Of a DNA stretch of 64,000 bases, positions 38,988 through 58,097 are shown piece by piece (the stretch's first letter is position 1; each line of letters starts with the position of its first letter). The notes beneath the pieces were generated by a model. The model did no database searches and was not told where the DNA came from. It saw nothing but the letters and a program-made list of their open reading frames with translations. The position numbers and the translations under genes were made by a program. The stretch is from Pseudoxanthomonas sp. PXM03 (GTDB lineage Bacteria; Pseudomonadota; Gammaproteobacteria; Xanthomonadales; Xanthomonadaceae), in the NCBI RefSeq assembly GCF_014852005.1, contig NZ_JACVAU010000001.1:1-64000 (forward strand), written 5' to 3'.

Positions 38988-40250
38988 TCAGTTGGCGACT
39001 TCATCCGCATCGCGCGCGTCGGGAGACTGGCGCGCGACGATGCTGGTCGCGGTGAGATCACCGGTGACATTGCCGGTGGTCGCGAAGACATCAGGAATGG
39101 TATCCACTGCAAGCAGCAGGCCCAGCGGCTCGATCGGCAGCCCCATCGATTGCGTCACCGGCATCACCGTTGCCATGAAGCTGACCTGCCCGGGCAGGCC
39201 GATAGAGCCGAGACTGATCACCACCGCCAACGCGGCGCCGGCTGCCAGCGTCACCGCATTCACGTCGATGCCGTATGCCCACGCGACGAAGCATGCAGCG
39301 ACGATGTACTGGATCGGGCTGGTGATCCGGAACAGCGTCACCGCCATCGGCAATACCAGCGCAGCCACCGCGCGCGGATGCCCCAGACGGAAGCGTGCGC
39401 TTTCCACCATCGCCGGCAGCGAAGCCAGGGATGACTGCGTGCTGGCAGCCACCACTTGGGCCGGCAGGATCGCCTTGGCGAAAGCGAGCGGCGACTGGCG
39501 TGCGAAGGCCGCAACCAGGACGTAGCAGATCAGCGTGGCGCCGAGATACATGCCGCATTGCAGGCCGATGTACCCGGCCAGCGCGCCGATCACGCCGATA
39601 CCCGCCTGCGCACACACGGCCAGCACCAGCGCGAAGACGCCTATCGGCGCCGCCACCAGCATCCAGCGCACGATCACGATCATGGTGTCGGCGATGCCAT
39701 GGCAGAACGCGATGATCTGCACGCGTCGGTCTTCCTGCACGCGGGTCAACGCAAACCCGAAGAACAGCGCGAACACCACCACTGGCAGCATCGCGCCCTG
39801 TGCCGCCGCCATGATGGCGTTGCTGGGCACCACCGATCCTATCCAGTCCGCGAGCCCGGGTGTTGCCATCTCGCCAGCTGCGGGCAATGTGCCGCGCAAG
39901 GTGGCTGTGAGGCTGGCACTCGGCGGCACCAGTGACAGCACGAGCGGTGCGACGATCGCGGCATAGGCGGCGAACAGGGAAAGCAGGCTGATGAAGACCA
40001 CCATCGCGCGTCGTGCGACGCGGCCGGAGGCCGCCGCATCGCTGGCGGTGGCGACGCCCAGGATCACCAGCGACAGCACCAGCGGCACCACGGTCATCTG
40101 CAGGCCGCTGAGCCAGAGCTTGCCGATCGGCTGCGCGATCGCGACCGCGGTGCCCGCGCTGTCCGGCAGCCAGTGCGCCAGGGACAGGCCGGCAACGGCA
40201 CCGGCGCCCAATCCGAGCAGTACGCGCGCCGTGGCGCCGGGCCACCTCAT
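38988..40250 (-). CDS. Dicarboxylate/amino acid:cation symporter (DAACS)
   Basis: A 420-residue SDF-family carrier that imports dicarboxylates or acidic or neutral amino acids with H+ or Na+. The hairpin-1 serine motif reads AASTQSSLASLPAM, and hairpin 2 / TM8 carry SIGLPGQVSFMATVMPV and NVTGD with the Asp. About eight helices. Last gene of the minus-strand murein-peptide operon; its ATG overlaps the stop of the L,D-transpeptidase gene by 4 bases. In context, L-Glu, D-Glu or D-Ala are candidate substrates (inference). Confidence 0.9.
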   Translation of the reverse strand: MRWPGATARVLLGLGAGAVAGLSLAHWLPDSAGTAVAIAQPIGKLWLSGLQMTVVPLVLSLVILGVATASDAAASGRVARRAMVVFISLLSLFAAYAAIVAPLVLSLVPPSASLTATLRGTLPAAGEMATPGLADWIGSVVPSNAIMAAAQGAMLPVVVFALFFGFALTRVQEDRRVQIIAFCHGIADTMIVIVRWMLVAAPIGVFALVLAVCAQAGIGVIGALAGYIGLQCGMYLGATLICYVLVAAFARQSPLAFAKAILPAQVVAASTQSSLASLPAMVESARFRLGHPRAVAALVLPMAVTLFRITSPIQYIVAACFVAWAYGIDVNAVTLAAGAALAVVISLGSIGLPGQVSFMATVMPVTQSMGLPIEPLGLLLAVDTIPDVFATTGNVTGDLTATSIVARQSPDARDADEVAN

Positions 40251-41041
40251 CGCGTCGCCTCCGGTAGCCGCCAGTCATGCGCCAGGCGCGCGTATTCATC
40301 GCGCGGTAGCAACACGAACACCGGCCGTGCGTCCGGCCGCAGCCAGGCCAGCAAGCTGTCCATCGTCCCGGATGCCATGGCGGTGCAGCCCGCCGTCGCT
40401 TCGCCGGGGGTGCGCCACAGGTGCGCGAAGATGCAGCTGCCGCCACGCGGTGTCGCGTTGGGGTTGTGGCCGATCACCAGGCCGTTACGGTAGCGCGGGT
40501 CGCCGTTGTTGTGCAGGTCCAGCCGCATGGGTTCCGTCGATCCCTTCGCGGCCGCTTCGCCCTGCTCGCGGGTATCGATGATGCGGTTGTAGAGCGGGGA
40601 GTCCGGCACGTCGATGCAGTAGCTGGTCGCATGCATCGGACGATACGGCATGGCCGTGCCTGCCTTGGATCCGTAGCCGAATGCCTCGCCCAGAGTGAAG
40701 ATACCGGCGGGCGCGCGTCCATCCCCTTCCTGCTTCACCGGCCCCTGCGGTTGCGCCGGGTGCAGCCCGTCGCCCCATGCCGATCCATTGCGTCCCACCG
40801 TGATGGGCGCGGCGGACGCCTCGGATTGCCAGCGCCCGTCCCTGAATTCGAAGCGCTGCAGCGTGCCGCTGGTGGCATCCCAGCCATCGGTCAGGACCAG
40901 CACCATCTGGCGTGCATCGCGCCAGGGTAGCGAAGTGGACGCCTGCGTGCCTGCGGCGGATGCGCTGTCGCCGTACGCGAGCATGAGGGCTGCGAAGGCG
41001 AGCGAGCGGAACGAGTGACGCATGGACGGCAGTGCGGGCAT
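40247..41041 (-). CDS. L,D-transpeptidase-like (YkuD-type) exported protein
   Basis: A 264-residue protein with an export signal (FRSLAFAALMLAYGDSASA). The YkuD-like core shows RLDLHNNGDPRYRNGLVIGHNP with the His, and the catalytic Cys in EATAGCTAM. Such enzymes cross-link or attach to peptidoglycan stem peptides, or have drifted to L,D-carboxypeptidase activity. The ATG at 41041 shares its A with the TGA of the regulator gene (TGATG), indicating coupling. Confidence 0.84.
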   Translation of the reverse strand: MPALPSMRHSFRSLAFAALMLAYGDSASAAGTQASTSLPWRDARQMVLVLTDGWDATSGTLQRFEFRDGRWQSEASAAPITVGRNGSAWGDGLHPAQPQGPVKQEGDGRAPAGIFTLGEAFGYGSKAGTAMPYRPMHATSYCIDVPDSPLYNRIIDTREQGEAAAKGSTEPMRLDLHNNGDPRYRNGLVIGHNPNATPRGGSCIFAHLWRTPGEATAGCTAMASGTMDSLLAWLRPDARPVFVLLPRDEYARLAHDWRLPEATR

Positions 41042-41898
41042 CACGACTCCAGCAGATGATGGATGCGTTCAAGATTGATGGCGAGTTGCCGGTTCCGGTC
41101 CGGATTGGTCTGGCACAACAGTACGAAGACGAAATCCAGCAGCGATTGCAGCGAAGAACGGTACAGCAGTTGTTCCACGTGCGGCGCAGGGTCGTGCGCG
41201 GAAATCAACAGCGCGGCATCGGCATGCGCGCGCAAGGGATTGGCGGTATGCCGCGTGATCGAGATGACCTTGCCTTCGCAGGCCTGGAATTGCCGGCTGA
41301 CCTGGGACAGCTCGGGCAACTTGCCGAATTCGGAGAACATCAGCAGCACGTCGCCGGGCCGCGTTGCCGACAAGTTGGCCATCATCAGGATCGGATCGGT
41401 ATGGTGCACGGTCAGTACGCCGAGCAGCGACAGCCGCATCGCGAACTCGCGCGCGAACAGGCCGTCGTCACCCAGGCCGCAGACGAACACCTTGTCCGCC
41501 CGGTCGATCAGTTCGACGATCGGCTCGATGTGCGAGCGCGGGTTGAGGCTGCGGGTTTCTTCCTCGGCCGAGGCCTTGCTGCGCCGCAGCCCATCCTGCA
41601 GTCGCTGGTAAGCATCGCCCGCCTCGTCACCTGCGGACGCCGGGGGTTGCGCCTGCCCGTTGCCGTTGCGCGCGACTGCCTCGCCGATGGTGTACTTCAG
41701 GTCGGGATAGCCCTTGAAGCCGAATTTCTGCGCGAACTTGACCACGCTCGACTGGCTGACGCCCAGTGCGCTGGCCAGCTGCTGCGAGGAGTAGTCGCGC
41801 AGCAGGTGCGCGTTGTCGAGGATGAAGTCGGCGATGCGGCGCTCGATGGCCGACATCTGGTCGCGTTCGGAGCGGATCTTCACCAGGGGCGTTGTCAT
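41041..41898 (-). CDS. MurR/RpiR-family transcriptional regulator
   Basis: A 285-residue regulator. An N-terminal HTH_6 domain (IRSERDQMSAIERRIADFIL, LASALGVSQSSVVKFAQKFGF) is joined to a SIS phosphosugar-binding domain (FVCGLGDDGLFAREFAMRL, DVLLMFSEFGKLPE). Members sense sugar phosphates such as MurNAc-6-P. Placed inside a peptidoglycan-peptide operon, it likely controls that locus; its operator may be the AT-rich box at 44578 and 44609 (inference). Confidence 0.9.
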   Translation of the reverse strand: MTTPLVKIRSERDQMSAIERRIADFILDNAHLLRDYSSQQLASALGVSQSSVVKFAQKFGFKGYPDLKYTIGEAVARNGNGQAQPPASAGDEAGDAYQRLQDGLRRSKASAEEETRSLNPRSHIEPIVELIDRADKVFVCGLGDDGLFAREFAMRLSLLGVLTVHHTDPILMMANLSATRPGDVLLMFSEFGKLPELSQVSRQFQACEGKVISITRHTANPLRAHADAALLISAHDPAPHVEQLLYRSSLQSLLDFVFVLLCQTNPDRNRQLAINLERIHHLLES

Positions 41899-41952
41899 GG
41901 CGTGAGTGTGATGGCGGTGGGCGGTGCTGACAACGGGCCTTCGCCACCGGGC

Positions 41953-43050
41953 TCAGCCCGGCAGCATCTCGAGGCCGCGGATCTCACGGATGCCCAGGCC
42001 GGGCGCGTCGGTGATCGTGATCTCGGATTCGTTGAAGATCACCCCGCCCTCGACCGGGTTGAACTGGCCCAGCGACGGACCGTCCAGGTCCACCTTGGTG
42101 ATCACGTTGGCCTTCGCGGCGGCCACGTGGACGGCGGCCGCCACGCTGATGCTGGTCTCGATCATGCAGCCGATCATGCATTCCACGCCATACAGCGACG
42201 CGATGTCGGCGATCCGGATGGCGTTGGAAATGCCGCCGGTTTTCATCAGCTTGATGTTGATGATGTCGGCGGCGCGCATCTTGATCAGGTCGATGACTTC
42301 GGTGGGCCCGAACACGCTCTCGTCGGCCATCACCGGGGTGTGCACGCGGTCTGTGACGTACTTCAGTCCCTCGAGATCGCGCGCCTTGACCGGCTGTTCC
42401 AGCAGTTCGAGCACCACGCCTGCATCTTCGAGGTGCTGCATGGCGAACACCGCCTGCTTGGCGGTCCAGCCCTGGTTGGCGTCCAACCGCAGCAGTGCGC
42501 GGCCTTCGACGGCGGAATAGATGGCCTTCACCCGTTCGATATCCAGGCCGATGTCCTTGCCCACCTTGATCTTCAACGACTCGAAGCCACGCTCCACCGC
42601 ACTGATGGAATCGGCCACCATCTTGTCGATGTAGTCCACGCTGATGGTGATGTCGGTGGTGATGACCGGGTCGCCACCGCCGAGCATCTTGTAGAGCGGG
42701 GCGTCGTACAACTGGGCCCAGAGGTCGTAGACCGCGATCTCCACCGCGGCCTTCGCGCTGGTGTTGCGCTCCAGTGATGTCTGGATGAGGTCGGTGATCC
42801 GGTTGAGGTGGGCGATTTCCTGCCCGATCAGGCGCGGCCGGATGAACTTGCCGATGGCTTCGATGATGGAGCCATGCGTATCGCCGGTGATCACGGCGGT
42901 GGCGGGGGCCTCGCCGTAGCCTGTGTGCCCGGTGTCGGTGTGCACGATCACCACGATGTCCTCGACCGTGTCGACGGTGCGCAGGGCGGTCTTGAACGGG
43001 GTCTTCAACGGCACGCGCAGCATGCCGAACTTGATGTCGGTGATCTTCAT
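41953..43050 (-). CDS. L-Ala-D/L-Glu-type dipeptide epimerase
   Basis: A 365-residue enolase-superfamily enzyme of the muconate-lactonizing subgroup. Catalytic Lys pair: SLKIKVGKD near residue 161 and NIKLMKTGG near 268. Metal ligands: LRLDANQG, LLEQPV and MADESV. The C-terminal DLDGP matches dipeptide epimerases, whose Asp binds the substrate ammonium. It interconverts L-Ala-D-Glu from murein with L-Ala-L-Glu so that ordinary peptidases can split it. Overlaps the endopeptidase gene by 4 bases. Confidence 0.9.
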   Translation of the reverse strand: MKITDIKFGMLRVPLKTPFKTALRTVDTVEDIVVIVHTDTGHTGYGEAPATAVITGDTHGSIIEAIGKFIRPRLIGQEIAHLNRITDLIQTSLERNTSAKAAVEIAVYDLWAQLYDAPLYKMLGGGDPVITTDITISVDYIDKMVADSISAVERGFESLKIKVGKDIGLDIERVKAIYSAVEGRALLRLDANQGWTAKQAVFAMQHLEDAGVVLELLEQPVKARDLEGLKYVTDRVHTPVMADESVFGPTEVIDLIKMRAADIINIKLMKTGGISNAIRIADIASLYGVECMIGCMIETSISVAAAVHVAAAKANVITKVDLDGPSLGQFNPVEGGVIFNESEITITDAPGLGIREIRGLEMLPG

Positions 43051-44513
43051 GGAGCCCCTTGGGCACGGATTCTCTGGATGGCGGTGATGCGGTCCACGGT
43101 GGGCTGCTCGCTGTTGAACATCAGCGGCTCCAGCGGGGTGACGGCCACCGAATTGAGCCGGGTGCGCACGGTCTTCCCGTCCGCGCCACGATAGGTGATG
43201 CCGGTGGTGTCGTGAATGGTGTAGGTGGTGCCATTGTCATGGCCGATCACCATCATCACGTGGCCGGGGATATAGACAAGATCGCCTACCTGCAGCGTAC
43301 GCAGCACGGCGAGGCGCTTCTCGTGGCTGTCGGAAGCCTCGAAGCCTACCCGCTCGAGAGCGGGACTGACGGCCTGCGCGCTGGTGTTGCGCGGCAGGGT
43401 GATGCCCATGCTGCGGTAGACCTCGGAGACGAAGCCGCTGCAGTCGCGGGTGTTGTAGCTGTGGCCCCAGCCGTAACGCTCGCCAAGGAACTTGAAGCTC
43501 TGCTGCAGCAGGTTGGCCTGCGTCAGCGGCAGGTAGTCCGGTGCCACGTCCGCCGTGCGCGGCAGCAGCGCGGGCAGCAGCGCCAGTGCGCCGTCGGCGC
43601 GCCGCACGGGCAGCTGGATGACATGCGAGGTGTAGGGGTGCTGCCCGTTCACCGGCGTGTCGGCCGGCCAATCGGCAAGCAGCGGGACGCGCACGCCCAT
43701 GTCCAGTTGCAGTTCGGACAGGCCGGCCTCCTCCGGGTTGTGGACGGTGCGCGCTGTCGCGCCCGTCACCACCAGTGAAGGTGTGCTGCGTCCATAGCCG
43801 AACACCATCCCTCTATCGCCCTCGGCGACGTACTGCTTTTCGATCCATGCTGCGTAGAGCGGGCTGACCACGAAGTACCAGTCGCCGTCAGCGCTGGTAT
43901 GCGCGATGACGACGGGGATACCGGGAAACAGGGCGCTTTCCTGGAAGCGGTCGATATCCGTGTCGCCCTGGCTGCTGAACACACGCTCGCGGCTCGGGAA
44001 CGTGCGCAGGTCGGCACGGTGCACGACCAGGCCGTAGCGTGCCGGCGCGCGCTCCGCGACGGTATCCACGGCCGCATTGGCGGCGATCGCGGCCAACTGC
44101 GTCTTCGTCACCTCGCGACCCTGTGCGTCGTACAGGGTGCGGGTGGGCGGTGCCGAAAGCGGCAGCAGCCATGCCCGCACCTCGGCGCGGGTCAGTTCCG
44201 CCGGCAGTGCTTCCAGTGCATGGACGTGACGGTCGGTCTGCTGCATGCGCTGGTTCTGCGCGGCCACGCCGGCACGATCGAGCAGCGCGCGCTGCGGGTG
44301 CGCCAGCTTGCCCGTCCAGTAGTCGGCTTGCAGGTGGCGGTCCTCCACGCCGATCACCGCATGCTGCGGTAGCGGCAATGACGCGCGTGCCAGCGCGGGC
44401 GGTGTGGCGCACAGCAACGCCGTCAGGGCGAAGCAGTGCAGCCACCGGCGATGGGGGGCGTGCCCCGGAGTGTCCCGTCCCACCGTGGGCCGGTAAGGCG
44501 TCGATGCGTTCAT
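43047..44513 (-). CDS. SH3 / NlpC-P60 murein endopeptidase
   Basis: A 488-residue exported protein with a signal peptide (FALTALLCATPPALA). SH3-type domains occupy about residues 170-300 and an NlpC/P60 domain the rest: catalytic Cys ~358 in NTRDCSGFVSEVY, His ~418 in IPGHVMMVIGH, and a third polar residue in YTIHDTT. Relatives such as YkfC cut between D-Glu and the diamino acid of free murein peptides, releasing L-Ala-D-Glu, the substrate of the next gene's epimerase. AGGGGAG lies before the ATG at 44513. Confidence 0.9.
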   Translation of the reverse strand: MNASTPYRPTVGRDTPGHAPHRRWLHCFALTALLCATPPALARASLPLPQHAVIGVEDRHLQADYWTGKLAHPQRALLDRAGVAAQNQRMQQTDRHVHALEALPAELTRAEVRAWLLPLSAPPTRTLYDAQGREVTKTQLAAIAANAAVDTVAERAPARYGLVVHRADLRTFPSRERVFSSQGDTDIDRFQESALFPGIPVVIAHTSADGDWYFVVSPLYAAWIEKQYVAEGDRGMVFGYGRSTPSLVVTGATARTVHNPEEAGLSELQLDMGVRVPLLADWPADTPVNGQHPYTSHVIQLPVRRADGALALLPALLPRTADVAPDYLPLTQANLLQQSFKFLGERYGWGHSYNTRDCSGFVSEVYRSMGITLPRNTSAQAVSPALERVGFEASDSHEKRLAVLRTLQVGDLVYIPGHVMMVIGHDNGTTYTIHDTTGITYRGADGKTVRTRLNSVAVTPLEPLMFNSEQPTVDRITAIQRIRAQGAP

Positions 44514-44577
44514 CCGCTCCCCTTGGTCAGGCCTGGTCCGCCGGACATACATGACGCCATGCCGGGGGTAGGTTCTG

Positions 44578-44626
44578 CAAGAATATTTATTTCTTCCGAG
44601 ATAAAAATCAAGAATAAATTATTGAC
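44578..44626. promoter_or_regulatory. Divergent control region with two AT-rich boxes
   Basis: CAAGAATATTTATT (44578-44591) and CAAGAATAAATTATTGAC (44609-44626) are direct repeats spaced 31 bases, three helical turns, in an AT-rich island within GC-rich DNA. The second contains the palindrome AATAA-A-TTATT and overlaps the -35 of the plus-strand promoter. The same 18-base box recurs at 50190. A likely operator for the MurR/RpiR regulator (inference). Confidence 0.65.
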
Positions 44627-44650
44627 CCATGCATTAATGCCGTGTTACAC
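44622..44650 (+). promoter_or_regulatory. Sigma-70-type promoter for the transglutaminase / TonB receptor genes
   Basis: TTGACC (44622-44627), a 17-base spacer, then TTACAC (44645-44650). The -35 is strong and the -10 moderate. The expected transcript would start near 44657, a few bases before the coding start, leaving a very short leader. Confidence 0.6.
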
Positions 44651-44673
44651 AGCCGTGACCAGTCGACGTGGGG

Positions 44674-46197
44674 ATGTACGACGTGGATGCCAGCAAGCGC
44701 CAGCACACGGTTGCAGCACGCGGCAGGCGCCCCAGGCGCCGGCTGGCGGCGTGGCTGTGCCTGTGCGGGTGGCCGATGGTACTCCTCGCTCCCCCGGGTG
44801 CATGGGCGGGAGACCCGCTGGTGGAGATCGTCGCCGATGTGGACCAGGGGCGCTTCCGCGACGCCGACGCTGCCATCACCCGAGCGCTGGCGGCGGCCCC
44901 CACCGACGCCGCCGGCCGCCAGGCGCTGCTGTTTCAGCGCGAACGCATGCGCCGGATCCGCCTGGACTTCACGCTCGACGCAGACGCCGTCCGTCGTCGG
45001 ATCCGTGCGCAGGTACCGGATCTGCGCGAGGACGAGTTCCAGCGTTGGGATCGTGCCGGCCTGATCGAGCGGCTGGATATCGATGGCGAGCCGCGCTATT
45101 TCAGCCGCTCCGTCTCGAACCTGTTCCGGCTCAGCCCGGAGGCGGCCGCGCGCCGGGCGCCACCGGTCAAGCCGTTCACCGAGGGCCCGTTCGAATCCCT
45201 GCATCCCCACCACCATGAAGTGGTGCGTGCGGCCGCAGCCTCGCGATCGAGCAGCGTGGCGCCGCGCCGCATCCGTGTAACCCAGTCGCTGACGGTGAAG
45301 CCGGGTGCGGTGCCGGCGGGAGAGAGGGTGCGGGCGTGGATCCCTTACCCGAGAGCGATCCCCGGCCAGCAAGAAGGCATTCGCCTGCTGGGCAGTCTGC
45401 CGGCGGGTGCGCAGGTCGCGCCGGAGTCCGCGCTGCAGCGGACGGCCTATCTCGAGCAGCCCGCCTTGGCCGATGCGCCGACGACGTTCTCGGTGAGCTA
45501 CGAGATGACCGTCCATGCGCGCCATTTCCCCATTGATCCGGACAAAGTGGTGCCCGCGGACATCACGCCGGCATTGGCGCCGTTCGTGGCCGAACGCGCG
45601 CCGCATGTGGTCTTCAGCGATGACCTGCGCCGCTTCAGCGCCAGCGTCGTCGGCGAGGAGACACATCCCTACCGCATCGCGCAGAAGCTGTTTGCCGCCG
45701 TGGATCGCATTCCGTGGGCAGGTGCGCGCGAGTACTCGACCATCAGCAACATCAGCGACTACGCGTTCCGCGCCGGGCATGCCGATTGCGGGCAGCAGAC
45801 CCTGTTGCTGATCACCCTGCTGCGCATGAACGGTATTCCCGCGCGCTGGCAGTCCGGCTGGGTGTACTCGGACGATGCAGTCGGCTACGACAACATGCAC
45901 GACTGGGGCTGGGTGTACCTGGCACCCTACGGCTGGGTGCCGATGGACGTGACCACGGGCCAGCTGCAGTCGGACGATCCCGCGCTGCGCTGGTTCTACC
46001 TGGGTGGGCTGGACGCCTACCGCATCGCATTCAACGACGACTATTCGCGCGAGTTCGTTCCCGCCAAGCGGCACGTGCGTTCGGAGACGGTGGACCTCCA
46101 GCGCGGCGAAGCGGAGTGGCAAGGCGGGAACCTCTACTTCGATCAATGGGATTACCGGTTCGAATGGACCGTGTTGCCGCAGGACGGGCACGACTGA
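44674..46197 (+). CDS. Transglutaminase-like exported protein
   Basis: A 507-residue protein with a signal peptide (LAAWLCLCGWPMVLLAPPGAWA). A helical N-terminal half precedes a transglutaminase-like core: Cys372 in HADCGQQTLLL, His409 in NMHDWGW and Asp425 in PMDVTTG make an intact triad. Bacterial members act as peptidases or amide-forming enzymes; here a peptide substrate is suggested by the neighbours. ATG at 44674 is preferred; an in-frame GTG at 44668 is possible. The following receptor gene starts 46 bases after. Confidence 0.84.
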   Translation: MYDVDASKRQHTVAARGRRPRRRLAAWLCLCGWPMVLLAPPGAWAGDPLVEIVADVDQGRFRDADAAITRALAAAPTDAAGRQALLFQRERMRRIRLDFTLDADAVRRRIRAQVPDLREDEFQRWDRAGLIERLDIDGEPRYFSRSVSNLFRLSPEAAARRAPPVKPFTEGPFESLHPHHHEVVRAAAASRSSSVAPRRIRVTQSLTVKPGAVPAGERVRAWIPYPRAIPGQQEGIRLLGSLPAGAQVAPESALQRTAYLEQPALADAPTTFSVSYEMTVHARHFPIDPDKVVPADITPALAPFVAERAPHVVFSDDLRRFSASVVGEETHPYRIAQKLFAAVDRIPWAGAREYSTISNISDYAFRAGHADCGQQTLLLITLLRMNGIPARWQSGWVYSDDAVGYDNMHDWGWVYLAPYGWVPMDVTTGQLQSDDPALRWFYLGGLDAYRIAFNDDYSREFVPAKRHVRSETVDLQRGEAEWQGGNLYFDQWDYRFEWTVLPQDGHD

Positions 46198-46243
46198 CCA
46201 CGACAGACAGTTCAACCAACATCTTTAGCAGGAGAGAGCGGGG

Positions 46244-49243: not shown

Positions 49244-49281
49244 TCGCGCAGCGCATGCGATCGAAGCGGTTTTTCTCCGGT

Positions 49282-49312
49282 GGCCTGCTGTTCGCGGCAG
49301 GCCTTTCTTTTT
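49282..49312 (+). terminator. Rho-independent terminator after the Oar-like receptor gene
   Basis: GGCCTGC-TGTTCGCG-GCAGGCC followed by TTTCTTTTT, 39 bases after the receptor stop. It separates the transglutaminase-receptor unit from the amidase gene. Confidence 0.85.
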
Positions 49313-49380
49313 CTGCCGTCTGCGCCAGTCGGCATCGTCCGTGCTATTTCTTGGCACGGCTGCCCAACGAGGGTTTCATC

Positions 49381-50157
49381 ATGACCACGTCCGTCCCGTT
49401 CGCTTGCCGCGCTGCGCTGATTGCTGCGCTGGCCTTGTTCCTCGGCGGCTGCGCCCATTCCGGCCCGCGCAACCCGCTCGCCAGCTGGGTACCCTCGAAG
49501 AACTTCGATGAGCGGCGCCCGGTCGTCATCGTGCTGCACTACACCGAACAGGACTCGGTCGAGCAGTCGCTGGACACGCTGCGCACCCGCAACAGCGGCG
49601 GTCGCGTCAGTGCCCACTATCTGGTCGGCAGGGACGGCAAGGTCTACCAGTTGGTGAAGGATTCACAGCGCGCGTGGCATGCGGGCGCCGGCCGCTGGGG
49701 CGGCATCACCGACGTCAACAATGCCTCGATCGGCATCGAGATCGACAATGATGGCAAGACGGCGTATCCCGATGCCCAGATCGAGAGCCTGATCGTACTG
49801 CTGCGCGACCTGTCCGAACGCCTGCGTATTCCCCCTGCCCAGGTGATCGGCCATTCCGATCTCGCACCGTCGCGCAAGATCGATCCGGGCCCGCTGTTCC
49901 CGTGGAAGCGCCTCCACGATGCCGGCTTCGGCATCTGGCCCGCCGAAGGAGCAGGCGACCCCCCTGCGGGATTCGACCCCTGGCTTGCACTGCAGGCGGT
50001 CGGCTACTCCGTCGAGGATCGTGGCTCCACCGTGCGTGCGTTCCATCACCGCTTCCGTGGCATGGAAGGAACCGAACTGGATGCGGAGGACCTCCGCATC
50101 CTGCATGCGCTGACCCGCGTGGCGCCAGCACAGGACGCGGGCGCTCCGTCGCCTTGA
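49381..50157 (+). CDS. N-acetylmuramoyl-L-alanine amidase lipoprotein (AmiD-like)
   Basis: A 258-residue Amidase_2 enzyme with a lipobox (ALFLGGCAHS). Zinc ligands: His in VIVLHYTEQ, His in RAWHAGAG and the third in GHSDLAPSRKIDPG, with the catalytic Glu/Lys region present. It cuts the MurNAc-L-Ala bond and releases stem peptides, and is probably anchored in the outer membrane facing the periplasm. ATG at 49381 has GAGGG upstream; the longer frame would translate the terminator. Confidence 0.92.
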   Translation: MTTSVPFACRAALIAALALFLGGCAHSGPRNPLASWVPSKNFDERRPVVIVLHYTEQDSVEQSLDTLRTRNSGGRVSAHYLVGRDGKVYQLVKDSQRAWHAGAGRWGGITDVNNASIGIEIDNDGKTAYPDAQIESLIVLLRDLSERLRIPPAQVIGHSDLAPSRKIDPGPLFPWKRLHDAGFGIWPAEGAGDPPAGFDPWLALQAVGYSVEDRGSTVRAFHHRFRGMEGTELDAEDLRILHALTRVAPAQDAGAPSP

Positions 50158-50528
50158 TCAGGAATATTCAAGTCAGTTTTTTCGTGCAACAAGAATAAAT
50201 TATTGACTCACTCCGGGTGGCGTGCTACACGGATGTACAAGGGTTTTTGTGAGGGATGGCGGCATCGTCCATCCATGGGTGCCGGCGGGGTGCCGGCGCA
50301 CGTCATAGCAATCAAAACAACGTACCAACGTACTGCGGTGCGCATCCGGGACGGGTGCGCCGGAAGGCGCCAGTGGGGATTCGTGCGCTCCGGGGAGATG
50401 GCAGGCAACGCGTCCGTCGCGGAAGCCATGCGAGGACCATCGAGCTCCCCTGGAACAACGCGTCGGCGCATCGCAGCGACAGTGTAGTGGCCGCGTATTG
50501 CAGCGTTCTTTCATCCAGGAGATTCCGC
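50158..50528 (+). promoter_or_regulatory. Promoter and long leader of the second TonB receptor gene
   Basis: This 371-base gap begins with GGAATATTC and then the box CAAGAATAAATTATTGAC (50190-50207), whose TTGACT serves as -35 with CTACAC (50225-50230) as -10 at 16 bases. After it comes a leader of about 300 bases up to the ATG at 50529, with a GC-rich stem near 50280-50303 and no convincing small gene. The length leaves room for post-transcriptional control; a second, unrecognised promoter is also possible. Confidence 0.62.
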
Positions 50529-53414
50529 ATGCCCGTTCGATCCCATCCGCTCAAGCCGAGCCATCTCGCCGCCGCCATCGTGCTGGGACTCGCCATCCCC
50601 GCAGTCGGCCTCGCGCAGGATGCAGCGCCTGCCCAGGAAGGCGGTGCGCGCACGCTGGATACCGTCACCGTCACCGGTTCGCGCATCAAGCGCACCGACG
50701 TGGAAGCCGCACTGCCCGTCACCATCATCCAGAAGGCGGAGATCGAGGCGCAGGGCATCACCTCGGCAGAGCAACTGCTGCAGTTCCTCAACATCGCCAG
50801 CAACGGTTCCGACAGTCTTGCTTCCAACGCGGGCATCGCTCCGGCGGATCTGCGCGGCAACAATGGCGTGTCCGGTGCCAACCTGCGCGGCCAGGGCGCG
50901 GATGCCACGCTGGTGCTGCTCAATGGCCGCCGCGTCGCCACCCACGGCCTGCGTGGCCAGGCGGTGGACCTGAATTCGATTCCGTTCGCGGCGATCGACC
51001 GGGTCGAAGTGCTGCGCGACGGTGCGTCCGCCGTCTACGGCACCGATGCGATCGGCGGCGTCATCAACTTCATCACCCGCAGCGACTATCAGGGCATCAC
51101 GGTCAATGCCGGGTTCGACATGACCCAGGAAGGTGGCGGCAACATCTTCACCTACAGCGTCCTGGGAGGCATGGGCGACATCGACAACGATGGCTGGAAC
51201 GTCTGGGGCACGATGAACTATCGCGAGAACGAGATCCTGCTGGGCAGTGATCGCGATTTCTCCAACACCTTCCAGCTCAACCGCGGCCTGTCGCCCGACA
51301 CGCGCGGCACGCCGTTCGCCACCGTGTCCAACCTGGCCGGCGGCATGATCACGGGCACCCTGGCCGATCCGGCTGGCGGCGGCGGACAGGCCCTGATCAA
51401 CATCCTCAACCTGCCGGGCGCAGCGGGCTGCGAAGCCGGCGGCGACATGATGGGGCCCTATGCCTACCAGCTGTGGGGCGTGGCGAACTCCAGGTACGCC
51501 TGTGCGTGGGACTACCCGGCCGCGCAGGTGATGCAACAGCCACAGGAGAGCCTCCAGGCCCTGGGCCGTGCCACGTTCAAGATCAGTGACAACCACCGCT
51601 TCTACGCCGAAGCGATGGCCTCGCGTTCGGAGTCCAACCGCCAGTTCGAAGCGCAGCAGATCACCTCCAGCACCTCGACCGCGGCCTCGGCGCTCGGGCC
51701 GAGCACGTGGTATCCGCTGAACGCGAATACCACGGCGACCTACAACATGATCTACAACGCGCTGGTCGGCTATTTCGGTCCCGCCAACCTCGTCTACGGC
51801 CGTCCGATCCCTTATCGGTGGCGCTGCGAGATCTGCGGACCGCGCCAGATCGAGACCACCACCAAGGCGTACCGTTTCCTGGTGGGCTTCGACGGCACCC
51901 TGGGCAGCTGGGACTACGATATCGGCCTGTCGCGCGCCTCCAGCGAGGCCGAGTCGGTGCTGGGCACCGGCTATTACTTCACCCCGGCGTTCAAGGCGGT
52001 GCTGGGCAGTGGCCTGCTCAATCCCTTCCTGATGCCCGGCCAGCAGCACGATCCGGCGGGCGTTGCAGCGTTGCAGGCCGCGTCGGCGGCGGGCGTCCGC
52101 CTGTACGGCGGCGAGTCCACGGTCACGACGCTGGATGCGGCGTTCTCCGGTGGACTGGGGTTCAACCTCTGGGGCGGTGAGGTGATGGCAGCGGTCGGCG
52201 TGGACCTGCGTCGCGAGGAGTTCGAGTTCGGCTCGACCGCGGACGGCATTGTTCTGGACAACAGCTACATCTTCGGTGCGCCGTTCGATGCGACCAACAA
52301 CCTGCCCAAGGTGCAGCGCGATGTGAAGGCGGTCTATGCGGAAGCCTTCCTGCCGGTACTGGACAGCCTGGAAGTGAGCGTGGCCGTGCGCCGCGACGAT
52401 TACGACGGCTTCGGCAGCACGGTCAATCCGAAGTTCTCGTTCAAGTGGCAGCCGATCGATTCGCTGGCATTCCGTGGCGCCATCAGCGAAGGCTTCAAGG
52501 TGCCCGAGTTCACCAAGCTGTTCAGCGGTGTCACCGAAAGCCCGTACACCGGCTTCGACCTGGCCGACCCGGCTACCTGTCCCGGCGGTGCGGCGAATCC
52601 CGCGGTGCCGGGCTGCGAAGCCATCCAGCCCGCCATCTTCACGGGCGGCAAGGCCGACCTGCAGCCGGAAACGTCCGACCAGAAGAGCTTCGGCGTGGTG
52701 TTCGCGCCCAATGATCGCTTCAACATCAGCCTGGACTGGTGGGAGATCGAGCGCACCAACACCATCCGCACGCCCAACCAGGCGACCCTGATCGCCAACT
52801 ACGATCTCTTCGTCGACAACTGGATCCGCGACGCCAGCGGCGAAGTGGTGGCGATCGACCGCCGCTTCATCAACTCGGGCGGCACGCTGATCAGCGGCGT
52901 GGAAGTGGACGCCAACCTGACCGGCGAACTGGCCGGCGGCACGTGGCGCGTCAACCTCAACGGCAGCTACATCGACAGTTTCCAGGAGAAGGCGCTGGAG
53001 AACTCGCCCTATGGCGACAATCTGGTGGGCAAGTACGTCCGCTACTACAGTCTGCCGTTGAAATGGAAGCATACGCTGGGCGTCAGTTGGGCAAAGGGCG
53101 ACTGGTCGCACACGCTGACCCAGATCTACCGCGACGGGTACAAGGATGAGTTGCCGGTCAGCGTGAGGAACGGCAGCTACATTCCGGAAGACTGGAACCC
53201 GGACGTGGACGACTACATCACGTACAACTACAGCGTGGGCTGGACGGGTCTGGACAATGCCAAGTTCACCTTCGTCGTACGCAACCTGCTCAACGAAGAT
53301 CCTCCGTTCACCGCGCACCAGAACGACTTCGCTTCCGGCGCCGCGTGGGAGCCGCGTGTCGCCGATCCGCGCGGTCGTTCGTTCGCATTGATGGTCGAGT
53401 ACAAGTTCGACTGA
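50529..53414 (+). CDS. TonB-dependent receptor
   Basis: A 961-residue outer-membrane receptor. Signal peptide to GLAQD; a TonB box-like TLDTVTVTGSRIKRTD; plug with ADATLVLLNGRRV and VEVLRDGASAVYGTDAIGGVINF; large barrel ending in FALMVEYKFD. It belongs to the long Xanthomonas receptor type without STN or carboxypeptidase domain. AGGAGA lies 7 bases before the ATG. It shares the promoter box with the transglutaminase operon, so it may import murein peptides. Confidence 0.92.
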   Translation: MPVRSHPLKPSHLAAAIVLGLAIPAVGLAQDAAPAQEGGARTLDTVTVTGSRIKRTDVEAALPVTIIQKAEIEAQGITSAEQLLQFLNIASNGSDSLASNAGIAPADLRGNNGVSGANLRGQGADATLVLLNGRRVATHGLRGQAVDLNSIPFAAIDRVEVLRDGASAVYGTDAIGGVINFITRSDYQGITVNAGFDMTQEGGGNIFTYSVLGGMGDIDNDGWNVWGTMNYRENEILLGSDRDFSNTFQLNRGLSPDTRGTPFATVSNLAGGMITGTLADPAGGGGQALINILNLPGAAGCEAGGDMMGPYAYQLWGVANSRYACAWDYPAAQVMQQPQESLQALGRATFKISDNHRFYAEAMASRSESNRQFEAQQITSSTSTAASALGPSTWYPLNANTTATYNMIYNALVGYFGPANLVYGRPIPYRWRCEICGPRQIETTTKAYRFLVGFDGTLGSWDYDIGLSRASSEAESVLGTGYYFTPAFKAVLGSGLLNPFLMPGQQHDPAGVAALQAASAAGVRLYGGESTVTTLDAAFSGGLGFNLWGGEVMAAVGVDLRREEFEFGSTADGIVLDNSYIFGAPFDATNNLPKVQRDVKAVYAEAFLPVLDSLEVSVAVRRDDYDGFGSTVNPKFSFKWQPIDSLAFRGAISEGFKVPEFTKLFSGVTESPYTGFDLADPATCPGGAANPAVPGCEAIQPAIFTGGKADLQPETSDQKSFGVVFAPNDRFNISLDWWEIERTNTIRTPNQATLIANYDLFVDNWIRDASGEVVAIDRRFINSGGTLISGVEVDANLTGELAGGTWRVNLNGSYIDSFQEKALENSPYGDNLVGKYVRYYSLPLKWKHTLGVSWAKGDWSHTLTQIYRDGYKDELPVSVRNGSYIPEDWNPDVDDYITYNYSVGWTGLDNAKFTFVVRNLLNEDPPFTAHQNDFASGAAWEPRVADPRGRSFALMVEYKFD

Positions 53415-53445
53415 CCTGATCCGCCATCGGACCGCCTGAAGGTTC

Positions 53446-53475
53446 GGGCCGTCGCCGGCTTTCCGGTGGCGGCCC
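53446..53475 (+). terminator. Stem-loop after the second receptor gene
   Basis: GGGCCGTCGCCGG-CTTT-CCGGTGGCGGCCC pairs at 11 of 13 positions, 31 bases after the stop. No T-run, so it may only attenuate transcription into the serine hydrolase gene. Confidence 0.45.
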
Positions 53476-53527
53476 GCCTGCATGCGGGATGCCTCGCCTG
53501 CGATTCCGCGGAGCCCTGAGCCACGCC

Positions 53528-55072
53528 ATGAAACATCTTCTCGTCTGTCTCGCCCTGGTCGCGCCGCTCGCGCATGCCGCGCCCGGCAACGAAACCTTCG
53601 ATGCGGCAGTGGAGCAGACCTTCGAGCACTACCAGCTGCCCGGTCTTGCGGTCGGTGTCATCGAAGACGGCAAGATCGTCTACACGCGCACACTGGGTGA
53701 GGTACGCGCCGGCGGCGGCGGGAAGATCGACAATGACACGCTGTTCAAGATCGCCTCCAACAGCAAGGCGATGACCGCAGGCGTGCTGGCGCGCCTGGTC
53801 GACGCGGGCAAGTTGAAATGGGACGACCCGGTCACCAAGTACCTGCCGCAGTTCCGCATGCACGATCCGTGGGTCACGCAGCAGATGCAGGTGCGCGACC
53901 TGTTGATCCACAACAGCGGCCTGGGCCTGGGTGCGGGCGATCTGATGCTGTGGCCGGAGCCCAACCGGTTCACCCGTGCGGACATCATCGCCGGGTTGGC
54001 GCACCTGAAGCCGACGCACAGCTTCCGCGCCAACTACGCCTACGACAACCTGCTCTACGTCGTCGCCGGCGAGGTCGCAGCGGCGGCAGGCGGCGCCTCT
54101 TACGAAGAACTGGTGAAGCGCGAACTGTTCCAGCCGCTCGGCATGCACCGGTGCCAAGTGGGGGAGTGGAACCGTGCGCAGGTCGGCAACGTGGCGCAAC
54201 CGCACATGCGTACCGCGCAGGGCAATCGTGTCATCCGAGAAGACGCCGAGGTAGTGCCGGATCTCACCTCGATGGCGGCCGGCGGCATCCGCTGCAGCCT
54301 CGACGACATGCTGGTGTGGATGGACATGTGGCTGTCGCCGGAGCGTACCCCGGCGTGGTTGTCGCCCGCGCAGCGCAAGGCCGTGTGGACCGCGCATATG
54401 CCGATGCCCGTGAGCGCGCGCATGCGTGCCTGGGACAACAGCCATTTCTCCGCTTACGGCTACGGTTGGCGCCTGTCCGACGTTGATGGGGTCTGGAAGG
54501 TCGCGCATACCGGAACCCTCGCAGGCATGTACTCCTCGGTGATCCTGCTGCCGGACCAGCGCACCGGCATCGTCATCCTGATCAATGGCGAAGGCGAGGC
54601 CGCGCGGACGGTGCTGGGACAGGTGCTCACCAAGCATTTCACCGCGCCAGGGACATCGCCCACCGTCGCGCACTATGCGGCGCTGCTGGACAAGGAGCGC
54701 ACCGGTGAGCGGGCCACCAAGCCCAAGCCCGACACGGGGCATCGCACGCGCGCGACGGCGCGCGCGATGGCGCCGTGGATGGGACATTACCGCGACCCCT
54801 GGTTCGGTGAGGTGACCTTGTGTGCGACAGGCGATCGCGTGCGCTTTTCCGCGGCGCGCTCACCCATGCTCACGGGTACCGTGATGCGGGTGGACGAGCG
54901 CTGGCTGGTGGATTGGGATGATGACAGCGTGGATGCCGAGCCGTGGCTTCACTTCGCCCCAGCCCAGGCCGGCAGCGATGCCGGGCTTAAACTGTCGCAC
55001 GTCGACCCCGAAGCAGACTTCAGCTACGACTATGCCGATCTCGATTTCCACCGCACGCAGGCCTGCCGCTGA
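53528..55072 (+). CDS. Penicillin-binding-type serine hydrolase (class C beta-lactamase family)
   Basis: A 514-residue exported protein (signal LLVCLALVAPLAHA). Active-site motifs: SNSK (SxxK) in LFKIASNSKAM, YDN (YxN) in NYAYDNLLY, and HTG in KVAHTGTLAG. The last ~110 residues form a beta domain (DUF3471-like). Such proteins act as D-aminopeptidases or D,D-peptidases or esterases. Context suggests action on D-amino-acid-containing murein peptides. The next gene starts 10 bases downstream. Confidence 0.9.
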   Translation: MKHLLVCLALVAPLAHAAPGNETFDAAVEQTFEHYQLPGLAVGVIEDGKIVYTRTLGEVRAGGGGKIDNDTLFKIASNSKAMTAGVLARLVDAGKLKWDDPVTKYLPQFRMHDPWVTQQMQVRDLLIHNSGLGLGAGDLMLWPEPNRFTRADIIAGLAHLKPTHSFRANYAYDNLLYVVAGEVAAAAGGASYEELVKRELFQPLGMHRCQVGEWNRAQVGNVAQPHMRTAQGNRVIREDAEVVPDLTSMAAGGIRCSLDDMLVWMDMWLSPERTPAWLSPAQRKAVWTAHMPMPVSARMRAWDNSHFSAYGYGWRLSDVDGVWKVAHTGTLAGMYSSVILLPDQRTGIVILINGEGEAARTVLGQVLTKHFTAPGTSPTVAHYAALLDKERTGERATKPKPDTGHRTRATARAMAPWMGHYRDPWFGEVTLCATGDRVRFSAARSPMLTGTVMRVDERWLVDWDDDSVDAEPWLHFAPAQAGSDAGLKLSHVDPEADFSYDYADLDFHRTQACR

Positions 55073-55082
55073 CGTGCGAGGC

Positions 55083-55781
55083 ATGGCGCTGCTCCTGTTG
55101 AGTGCGCTTCCGTTGCTCGGCGCCTGCGCTTCCGCGCCGGGCGTGCAGGTGTCTCCGGCACAGGAAGCAGCGCAGGCGGACCTGGTCGATGCGGCGACGG
55201 TCGTGCCCGGTCTGCAGCAGGAAATCCGCTATGCGGGCAAGGACAATTTCGTGGGCGCGCCGGTCGCCGGTTACGACGCGCCCAAGTGCCTGCTGCTGGC
55301 ACCGGTCGCACGGGCGCTCGCCCGCGTGCAGCAGGACGTGCAGCGCGAAGGCCTGTCGCTGAAGGTGTTCGACTGCTATCGCCCGGTACGCGCGGTGAAG
55401 CACTTCGTCGCCTGGGCACGCGACCCTGCCGACCAGCGCACCAAGGCGGCGTACTACCCGAACCTGGACAAGGCGCGCCTGCTCGATGGCTACATCGCCG
55501 AGTCCTCGGGGCACAGCCGGGGCGCGACGCTGGATCTGACGCTCGTGCGCTGCAACGGTGGCGCGTGTACGGAACTGGACATGGGTACGCCGTTCGACTT
55601 CTTCGATCCGCGCGCCAATACCGCGCATCCGCAACTGGACGACGAGCAGCGACGCAACCGCGACCAATTGCTGCAGGCGATGGCGCGGCATGGGTTCCAT
55701 AATTATCCGATGGAATGGTGGCACTACACCTTCCGCCCCGAACCCTCCCCCAAGACCGCCTACGACGTTCCGATCCGATGA
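55083..55781 (+). CDS. D-alanyl-D-alanine dipeptidase (VanX/DdpX family) lipoprotein
   Basis: A 232-residue lipoprotein (lipobox LLGACAS). Zinc and catalytic motifs: SSGHSRGATLDLTLV (the SxHxxGxAxD type) and EWWHYTF with the Glu base and third His. It splits D-Ala-D-Ala. Presence in a catabolic rather than a vancomycin-resistance setting suggests feeding on the terminal dipeptide. Overlaps dadA by 4 bases (ATGA). Confidence 0.92.
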   Translation: MALLLLSALPLLGACASAPGVQVSPAQEAAQADLVDAATVVPGLQQEIRYAGKDNFVGAPVAGYDAPKCLLLAPVARALARVQQDVQREGLSLKVFDCYRPVRAVKHFVAWARDPADQRTKAAYYPNLDKARLLDGYIAESSGHSRGATLDLTLVRCNGGACTELDMGTPFDFFDPRANTAHPQLDDEQRRNRDQLLQAMARHGFHNYPMEWWHYTFRPEPSPKTAYDVPIR

Positions 55782-57043
55782 GTGCTTCCCTTTCCTCCCC
55801 TGCACCGCGCACCACCGATGTCGCGGTGATCGGCAGCGGCATTGTCGGCCTGTCGACGGCCCACCATCTCCTCGATCGCGGGCTGTCGTGCACGCTGATC
55901 GATGCGAAGGGACCCGCTGGCGAAACGTCGTTCGGCAACGCCGGCTCCATTTCCGTCGGCAACGTGATGCCGCAGTCCACGCCCGGCATCGTCATGAAGG
56001 CGCTGCGGATGCTCGCCAATCCGTTGGCGCCATTGAAGCTCGATTGGGGCGTCAGCCCGAGTTACGCGCGCTGGCTACTGCAGTTCCTCGACCAGGGCAG
56101 GATGGAGCACGTGCTGCCGATCATCGATGCGTTGAGTGCGATCAATACCGCCTCGCGCTCGGCGTGGCTCGAACTGGGCGAGCGGATCCGCGCGCAGGAC
56201 CTCATCGCGCACACCGGCTACCTGCACGTCTACAGCGAGGAGGCCAGCTTCGCGAAGGGCGAATGGGAACGTGGCCTGATGCGTGACCGCGGCGTGGCGT
56301 TCGACGTGTTGGACGCCGACCAGCTGCGTGAGCTCGAACCCGGCATCGGCACGGGCTTCCAGCGGGCGGTCTTCCAGCGCGAATCGCTGGCGATGCGCGA
56401 CCCCGGGGACTTCTGCCGGCGCCTCTTCAATCACCTGAGCGCGCGCGGCGCGACGCCGCTGATCGCCAGCGTCTCGGCGATCCTGCGCCAGGACGGCGGC
56501 TATCGCCTCGACACCGATCATGGCGCGGTGCATGCCGGCCGCGTGGTGGTGGCCGCGGGCGCCTGGAGCAACACCCTGCTGCGTCCGTTCGGGGTGAAGA
56601 TCCCGGTGATTCCCGCACGCGGCTACCACCTGATGTATCCGCAGAAGGATGTCATCGTGCGTCGGCCCACGCTGTGGGCGGAGCGCTACATGGTGGTGTC
56701 GCCGATGCAGTCCGGCATCCGCATGACCAGCATCAAGGAGCTGACGGCGCTGGGCCGCGACCCGCATTACCACCTGATCCGCCGGCTCGACCCCGAGGCG
56801 CGCAAGCTGTTCCCCGGCATAACGACTGAACCGGTATCCGAATGGGCGGGCAATCGGCCATGCACGCCGGATTCGCTGCCGATCATCGATCGGGTGCCGG
56901 GCGAGGACATCTTCGTCGCCACCGGGCATGGCCATCTCGGCTTGACGCAGGGCCCGGTAACAGGACGGCTGCTCGACCAGATGATGGCGGGCGAAGCGAC
57001 CGACATTCCGCTGACACCCTACGGGCTGGCGCGGTTCGCGTAG
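55778..57043 (+). CDS. dadA: D-amino acid dehydrogenase (DadA-like)
   Basis: A 421-residue FAD-dependent oxidoreductase of the DadA type. VAVIGSGIVGLSTAHHLLDRG is the dinucleotide-binding motif; ARGYHLMYP and GHGHLGLTQGPVTGRL are typical of the family. It oxidises D-Ala and other D-amino acids to keto acids and passes electrons to the respiratory chain. Translationally coupled to the dipeptidase that supplies D-Ala. Confidence 0.9.
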   Translation: MSASLSSPAPRTTDVAVIGSGIVGLSTAHHLLDRGLSCTLIDAKGPAGETSFGNAGSISVGNVMPQSTPGIVMKALRMLANPLAPLKLDWGVSPSYARWLLQFLDQGRMEHVLPIIDALSAINTASRSAWLELGERIRAQDLIAHTGYLHVYSEEASFAKGEWERGLMRDRGVAFDVLDADQLRELEPGIGTGFQRAVFQRESLAMRDPGDFCRRLFNHLSARGATPLIASVSAILRQDGGYRLDTDHGAVHAGRVVVAAGAWSNTLLRPFGVKIPVIPARGYHLMYPQKDVIVRRPTLWAERYMVVSPMQSGIRMTSIKELTALGRDPHYHLIRRLDPEARKLFPGITTEPVSEWAGNRPCTPDSLPIIDRVPGEDIFVATGHGHLGLTQGPVTGRLLDQMMAGEATDIPLTPYGLARFA

Positions 57044-57961: not shown

Positions 57962-58097
57962 CGGCGTCGGCGCCGGCCTCGCGCAGCCTGGCAGCGCATT
58001 CCTCGCAACACACCTCAACGGTACGGCCGCCAAGGGTGACTTCAATGGCGCCGCCGTCCAGCGGGTAGTCGCAGGCAGCGCAGGTCTGTTCGGTCAT
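57948..58097 (-). CDS. Small CxxC metal-binding protein (49 aa)
   Basis: A 49-residue protein, MTEQTCAACDYPLDGG at the start and VEVCCEECAARL in the middle: two pairs of Cys in CxxC spacing plus an extra Cys, fitting a zinc-ribbon or other metal-binding fold akin to a half YHS or TRASH motif. AAGGAA lies 5-6 bases before the ATG. It lies downstream of an AraC-type regulator gene and upstream of the NTF2-like gene, all on the minus strand, so probably one transcript. Confidence 0.7.
   Translation of the reverse strand: MTEQTCAACDYPLDGGAIEVTLGGRTVEVCCEECAARLREAGADADAAA

Follow-up and report, generated by a model that had tools for sequence, protein, structure and literature searches.

A locus of twelve genes in Pseudoxanthomonas sp. 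PXM03 (Xanthomonadaceae) probably directs the uptake of external peptidoglycan stem peptides and their catabolism as amino-acid food, under the control of an RpiR-type regulator. It occupies positions 38988-57043 of the window, by which we mean the whole stretch of 64,000 nucleotides that was analysed (contig NZ_JACVAU010000001.1, positions 1 to 64,000, assembly GCF_014852005.1). The genes stand in two divergent arms, and a conserved unit is recognisable within them, made up of an L-Ala-D/L-Glu epimerase, an NlpC/P60 endopeptidase, a YkuD-like protein, the RpiR regulator, a transglutaminase-like protein (TG), a TonB-dependent receptor (receptor 1), an S12 hydrolase, a VanX-like dipeptidase and one of two alternative permeases. 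An operator-like element, new here, tracks the RpiR gene and marks only this locus. Open reading frames (ORFs) and Pfam matches of the window recovered all twelve genes that had been predicted from the sequence alone, in the arms originally given:

38988..40250 (-), DAACS/SDF-family symporter (PF00375, 257 bits)
40247..41044 (-), exported YkuD-like (L,D-transpeptidase/carboxypeptidase-like) protein (PF03734 below cut-off; H193 and T-x-G-C220)
41041..41898 (-), RpiR/MurR-type regulator (HTH_6 PF01418, 78 bits; SIS PF01380, 52.9 bits)
41953..43050 (-), L-Ala-D/L-Glu epimerase of the enolase superfamily (MR_MLE_N/C)
43047..44552 (-), exported SH3b and NlpC/P60 gamma-D-Glu-diamino acid endopeptidase (SH3_6 PF12913, NLPC_P60 PF00877)
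44611..44626 (+), predicted RpiR operator, first copy, preceding the TG gene
44668..46197 (+), exported transglutaminase-like cysteine protease, TG (Transglut_core PF01841, 59 bits)
46244..49243 (+), Oar-type TonB-dependent receptor 1 (CarboxypepD_reg PF13620, OMP_b-brl_4 PF25183)
49381..50157 (+), AmpDh2/AmiD-like lipoprotein amidase, accessory (Amidase_2 PF01510, 125.9 bits)
50192..50207 (+), predicted RpiR operator, second perfect copy, preceding receptor 2
50529..53414 (+), TonB-dependent receptor 2, accessory (Plug PF07715, TonB barrel PF00593)
53489..55072 (+), exported S12/beta-lactamase-fold serine hydrolase, AmpH/ClbP-like (PF00144, 210.6 bits; SxxK/YxN/HTG)
55083..55781 (+), VanX-like D-Ala-D-Ala dipeptidase (M15), here a probable lipoprotein (PF01427, 142 bits)
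55778..57043 (+), DadA-like D-amino acid dehydrogenase, accessory (DAO PF01266, 214 bits)

The left arm, on the minus strand, runs from the SDF symporter to the endopeptidase, with 4-base overlaps at NlpC/epimerase, RpiR/YkuD and YkuD/SDF; the right arm, on the plus strand, runs from TG to the DadA-like gene. Receptor 1, which we take to be of the Oar type, has no Plug domain match in Pfam, and receptor 2 starts at an ATG with AGGAG upstream. The S12 protein has a DUF3471 match below the Pfam cut-off. The regulator is MurR-like in architecture, with both an RpiR-type helix-turn-helix and a SIS domain, and the Pfam matches of the twelve genes include no sugar gene. These matches likewise contain no SusD, though receptors are present, and no glycosidase, so the locus departs from a Bacteroidota polysaccharide utilisation locus (PUL) in both the SusC/SusD pair and the glycan enzymes.

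Homologues of the locus were searched in 149 genomes of the family, and the counts and co-occurrences that follow are raw, uncorrected for shared descent. An NlpC/P60 homologue was found in 98 genomes and the epimerase in 90, all of them NlpC-positive; the two genes are neighbours in 87 of the 90, the other three comprising two genomes in which they lie ~350-390 kb apart and one fragmented assembly with the genes on separate contigs. Eight genomes have NlpC without the epimerase and 51 have neither, while all 69 genomes with TG are NlpC-positive. From the 98 NlpC-positive genomes, 89 loci were sampled, with the window's own and eight others outside the sample; two genomes (G012 and G055) carry a second NlpC copy. 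Gene counts in these loci are lower bounds, some stretches stopping at contig ends: NlpC 89, epimerase 80, YkuD 69, RpiR 66, S12 66, TG 64, receptor 1 64, M15 60, SDF 41, AA_permease 26, DUF819 18, diaminopimelate decarboxylase 17, AmiD 15, receptor 2 5 and DadA 5. The full set of YkuD, RpiR, epimerase, NlpC, TG, receptor 1 and S12 was present in 48 of the 89, and the divergent gene order recurs in most of the sampled genomes. Recurrent order together with NlpC/epimerase co-occurrence indicates a locus beyond chance assembly. The joining of stem-peptide catabolism to a TonB receptor, as originally predicted, is thereby supported, and the unique or unstable gene order that had been named beforehand as speaking against it was not what we found. 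A gene set is indeed kept as a unit among relatives; the proposal that all twelve genes form it is ruled out by the rarity of AmiD, receptor 2 and DadA.

At wider taxonomic scales, the locus was detected in 37 of 121 genomes of an order-wide sample, spread over four families. A class-wide sample gave 4 of 369 genomes, all from the locus's own family, although the named matches include Steroidobacter. The named carriers, which are the 80 best among at least 556 matches, include members of Pseudoxanthomonas, Lysobacter, Luteimonas, Stenotrophomonas, Rhodanobacter, Dokdonella, Tahibacter and Steroidobacter. Combining the 89 sampled and 80 named loci gives a set of 169, in which 25 of the 80 have the same nlpC stretch as one of the 89, so that some genomes are counted twice.

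The operator-like element, AAGAATAAATTATTGACC, lies between the arms; in it the palindrome AATAA-A-TTATT directly adjoins TTGACC, and 17 bases further on comes a TGnTACACA-like block. At the window's first copy (44611-44626) this block reads TACACA and starts at 18 nt; at the second (50192-50207) it reads TACACG at 17 nt. A search of the 4.03 Mb genome with the 16-base core, allowing up to two mismatches, returned exactly two sites, both perfect and both in the locus. Across the 149 genomes (up to one mismatch), 63 sites were found in 59 genomes, all NlpC-positive, and all sites stand beside locus genes, whereas the reversed element gave none. Intergenic regions could be defined in 79 of the 89 loci, of which 65 have both element and RpiR, 12 have neither and 2 have the element without RpiR; the remaining 10 loci stand outside this count (9 without RpiR, 1 with it). 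Of the two element-only loci, L081 lies at a contig end and L089 carries its RpiR in a second part that has split off. The element is absent from all 225 coding stretches examined in the sampled loci. In a joint set of 157 regions (up to three mismatches), 145 have the element, 142 of these with RpiR, and all 12 regions lacking the element also lack RpiR. Because the presence of the regulator and that of the element coincide, RpiR is predicted to bind it.

The position of the element links import to catabolism. Among 152 sites in the 169 loci of the two overlapping, non-dereplicated sets, 133 precede TG, 6 receptor 1 and 10 receptor 2, and 3 have nothing annotated downstream; as in a substrate-utilisation locus, one regulatory element thus precedes both receptor and enzyme genes. 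Within 8 kb of NlpC lie 61 of the 63 sites in the family genomes, and the other two mark a relocated receptor and a split-off left arm. In one genome (G003), the stretch fetched around the main locus is without receptor 1, and an orthologue of that receptor with 59% identity stands on another contig with its element retained (L238:8001-11102). In another (G057, L239), ~24 kb separates NlpC from a left arm that has both an epimerase copy and an element of its own. These sites argue that what links the receptor with the catabolic genes is the element rather than their simply being neighbours.

The enzymes themselves point to stem peptides. Catalytic residues are kept in nearly every row of the homologue alignments of eight enzyme families (DadA is outside this set). 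The epimerase has as its best Protein Data Bank (PDB) match the L-Ala-D/L-Glu epimerase of B. subtilis (1jpm, 1.8e-101). Its R24, K160, K162, K267, D321 and D323 are invariant in 158/158 rows and cover the YkfB active-site residues, with the roles that we take these to have; no signal peptide is visible by eye. Its mean pairwise identity of 0.83 is far above the 0.56-0.64 of its neighbours. The endopeptidase matches 3m1u best (5.4e-27), and Cys371, His431 and His447 are present in all 159 rows, so that it combines the triad with the SH3b domain as in the YkfC/DPP VI subfamily. The nearest structure of the amidase is AmpDh2 (4bpa, 2e-41), with the lipobox Cys in 25/25 rows. For the S12 hydrolase, the nearest solved relative is ClbP (3o3v, 4e-22), and motif residues are kept in 121-122 of 122 rows. 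The VanX-like protein is closest to VanX (1r44, 1.4e-43) and keeps SGH, D and E-W-W-H in 99/99 rows (H146, D153, E213 and H216 in alignment numbering), which presumably bind zinc and carry out catalysis in this family; its lipobox Cys is found in only 36 of the 99. The TG triad Cys374/His411/Asp427 is invariant in 138 rows, and its model (predicted local distance difference test, pLDDT, 88) finds 3isr as best fold match (Z 20.1). The pseudomurein endoisopeptidase PeiP was also considered as a model for TG and set aside, its Foldseek E of 7e-3 and Z of 6.9 falling in the uninformative range. In the YkuD-like protein, H193 is present in 130 of 133 rows and TxGC220 in all 133.

An accessory gene of some relatives adds a separate argument. 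A diaminopimelate decarboxylase, absent from the window and with homologues in 17 of the 89 loci, occupies a place after receptor 1 and before the S12 gene; one example (L043:6011-7339:-) scores 472.1 bits and passes the TIGR01048 lysA equivalog cut-off of 297.9. Since diaminopimelate is the expected co-product of NlpC together with L-Ala-D-Glu, this decarboxylase argues independently for a stem-peptide substrate.

The inner-membrane step appears to be filled by interchangeable permeases. The assignment of the symporter to the DAACS family stands, and its best PDB match is an aspartate transporter (9bgz, 1.3e-47). In aspartate and glutamate transporters an arginine holds the side-chain carboxylate of the substrate. 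The aligned position here is Ala390, with Ala, Cys or Ser in 94/94 rows; the missing arginine makes a glutamate importer unlikely and a neutral or larger substrate likelier. SDF and AA_permease genes occur together in none of the 169 loci, which suggests that they are alternatives for a single import step. At L035:17457-18788:+, for example, an AA_permease_2 protein takes the symporter's place. A DUF819 (PF05684) membrane protein lies upstream of NlpC in 18 of the 89 loci (e.g. L043:12042-13199:+) and is a candidate importer of a wall dipeptide.

Receptor 1 has a history of its own. Its pairwise identities correlate with those of the other genes at 0.32-0.44, compared with 0.67-0.82 for the other genes among themselves (computed without dereplication for the window and the 105 loci that have all six genes). 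After dereplication, which left 85 of 106 rows, the receptors fall into two types of 42 and 43 rows, with median identities of 0.63 and 0.59 within and 0.49 between types. Two FastTree trees give 18 and 15 changes of receptor type, and on the tree of the other genes at least 15 are needed, compared with 3-7 for balanced splits of those genes and a shuffle mean of 29. The balanced splits were adopted after simply dividing each of those genes in two had set 84 rows against 1. Type switching is also seen inside Stenotrophomonas and Pseudoxanthomonas. The PXM03 genome itself holds a single weak, partial receptor 1 paralogue (30% identity), so the receptor types were probably donated by other genomes. 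One guess in keeping with this is escape from phages or bacteriocins.

In the proposed working of the locus, every substrate, RpiR binding and the sense in which it acts, the ligand, and an origin of the peptides outside the cell are inferences. Wall peptides would enter through the outer-membrane Oar-type receptor, and here through receptor 2 as well. In the periplasm, the amidase would free stem peptides, the VanX-like, YkuD-like and S12 enzymes may remove D-Ala ends, NlpC/P60 would cleave the D-Glu/diaminopimelate bond and TG may cleave another amide or isopeptide bond. The products would be imported by the permease (SDF or AA_permease, and perhaps DUF819 in some loci). The cytoplasmic epimerase would turn L-Ala-D-Glu into L-Ala-L-Glu, DadA would oxidise D-Ala, and diaminopimelate decarboxylase, where present, would lead on to lysine. 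RpiR would sit on the operators at the divergent promoter and the receptor-2 promoter until a wall-derived ligand relieves it.

Several observations weigh against this proposal. RpiR is present in only 66 of the 89 loci, some loci are reduced and lack RpiR, TG and receptor 1, and conservation among relatives may owe partly to common descent. A strict sigma-70 scan returned no promoter in the locus (2.8 in shuffles), and the TTGACC and TACACA blocks are read as a promoter only tentatively. The epimerase falls below NCBIfam equivalog cut-offs (256 vs 500 bits and 117 vs 343 bits), as do the VanX-like protein (184.7 vs 320 bits) and the DadA-like protein (212.3 bits vs the D-amino acid dehydrogenase cut-off of 383). 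Fold support for the functions assigned to the YkuD-like protein and TG is weak or generic: neither had a match in the PDB sequence search, and the YkuD-like protein scores 21.7 bits against a Pfam cut-off of 23.4 for PF03734, its model (pLDDT 70.6) matching Pgp2 weakly (6xj6, E 7.7e-3) and nothing at E <= 0.001. Neither a dipeptidase for L-Ala-L-Glu nor a proven importer of L-Ala-D-Glu is found in the locus. Finally, NlpC has Asn389 in 159/159 rows at the position of YkfC Asp256, and 3m1u likewise has Asn. According to the part of the YkfC study available, Asp256 and a tyrosine bind the free amine of L-Ala (PMC2954226), so that YkfC's strict specificity for a free N-terminus is not transferable to the NlpC of the locus.

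The source of the peptides is where the main alternative arises. Leaked self stem peptides could instead be recovered from the periplasm or medium as a side branch to AmpG/Mpl recycling, and every enzyme would suit self-derived fragments too. Export signals are visible by eye on most of the trimming enzymes, and loci with epimerase and NlpC persist without receptor 1 in some genera, yet at least one of these (L104) has another TonB receptor adjoining NlpC. We regard such own-wall salvage as unlikely. Elsewhere, the genome encodes AmpG, Mpl and an S66 peptidase of the LdcA family, so ordinary own-wall recycling seems present, probably keeping its usual route, and the locus would be additional. 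Moreover, 51 of the 149 family genomes do without both NlpC and epimerase, and the receptor shares the enzymes' element and retained it after relocation. Uptake from outside is therefore the better reading, and the walls of other bacteria would be a plausible food source.

Two further explanations are far less probable. In one, the receptor carries protein-derived peptides and the wall enzymes are passengers. Two-type receptor switching could then reflect changing ligands, and no Oar-type receptor is known to us as a carrier of wall peptides; however, the locus has no recognised general protease apart from TG, should that be one, the catabolic enzymes of clear family are all related to the wall or to D-amino acids, and the element links the receptor with wall enzymes, all of which makes general scavenging very doubtful. 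Degradation of toxic peptide antibiotics or D-amino-acid peptides by the VanX-like, ClbP-like S12 and NlpC proteins, suggested by VanX and ClbP being the closest solved relatives, is just as improbable, for it leaves the epimerase core, the diaminopimelate decarboxylase and the importing receptors unexplained, and VanX-type enzymes also occur without resistance roles.

A wider reading of external stem-peptide feeding can be offered only tentatively, and we hold it to be rather less than even. It would make the locus a dedicated regulon of the order of the Xanthomonadaceae for feeding on the peptidoglycan peptides of other bacteria, with an RpiR repressor, a single-locus operator, a stem-peptide TonB receptor and catabolism to pyruvate, glutamate and lysine. 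Only the receptor would be exchanged among species, in two types, a pattern to be expected if it were a target of phages or bacteriocins and selection continued to maintain the nutrient pathway.

Among the 22 largest clusters of unassigned ORFs (each in at most 20 of the 89 loci) no further member was recognised; by position and strand they read as flanking genes or shadow ORFs, most of them without a family scan. Ten gap ORFs that were scanned comprised five locus genes (three decarboxylases, one DUF819, one AA_permease), three without matches and two unrelated; six more comprised two without matches, the TonB receptor of L104 and three unrelated. Near one reduced locus, L109:8739-10094:- encodes VgrG3-like C-terminal, peptidoglycan-binding and XVIPCD domains (an X-Tfes-type effector). 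The protein directly after the locus in the window (57062-58045) has two DUF4440/SnoaL-like stretches, and an Rfam scan of the window gave no match.

Known systems share parts of this arrangement. The CUT (carbohydrate utilisation with TonB-dependent transporter) loci of Xanthomonas bring together a TonB receptor, degradative enzymes, an inner-membrane transporter and a regulator, as here, with plant carbohydrates as substrates, unlike the wall peptides proposed here. The MpaA-YcjG-PepD set of E. coli is cytoplasmic and without a receptor. As far as the accessible part of the source goes, it shares the logic of endopeptidase, epimerase and dipeptidase, but its endopeptidase is unrelated to the NlpC of the locus (PMC2954226). 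The same portion of that paper reports that epimerase genes adjoin NlpC/P60 genes (ykfB-ykfC) in several other bacteria, and in the ykfABC(D) murein tripeptide recycling of B. subtilis and B. cereus an NlpC/P60 gene likewise stands beside an L-Ala-D/L-Glu epimerase gene; these hosts have no outer membrane, YkfC has Asp256 where Asn is found here, and that portion names no TonB receptor, RpiR, VanX or decarboxylase (PMC2954226). The nag clusters of Caulobacter also combine a TonB receptor with cytoplasmic catabolism and overlap with wall recycling; they differ, in the excerpt at hand, in their N-acetylglucosamine substrate, phosphotransferase system permease and GntR-type regulators thought to act on them (PMC13046382).

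Another related system is a murein PUL of a Bacteroidota symbiont, Urechidicola, for which the consulted extract describes two SusCD pairs with epimerase, AmpG, AmpD and MurQ (PMC10199937). Both loci unite genes for TonB-type receptors, L-Ala-D/L-Glu epimerase, amidase and D-Ala carboxypeptidase; SusCD pairs, AmpG, MurQ, NagB and glycosidases that deal with the sugar moiety are, within that extract, confined to the PUL, whereas the locus here has no SusD or sugar genes and has NlpC/P60, VanX-like, TG-like and RpiR genes with the element, and the decarboxylase in relatives (PMC10199937). The original statement that no described system joins TonB receptors with such catabolism in one locus was hence too strong, since with the Bacteroidota locus in print this joining is not new in itself. 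A description of the present gene combination was not found in the literature searched (open-licence PMC papers): what appears new is a locus without sugar genes or SusD that combines NlpC/P60, VanX-like, TG-like and decarboxylase genes with a single-locus, RpiR-linked element.

To our knowledge, the recovery of outside wall peptides by outer-membrane bacteria has been little explored next to AmpG-type recycling. For reporter assays the locus supplies a predicted operator, its receptor is a candidate for carrying wall peptides across the outer membrane, and switching confined to the receptor makes the question of receptor evolution testable. As a conserved locus that carries its own mark, it would allow a direct test of whether bacteria exploit as food the walls of neighbours that have died or been killed.

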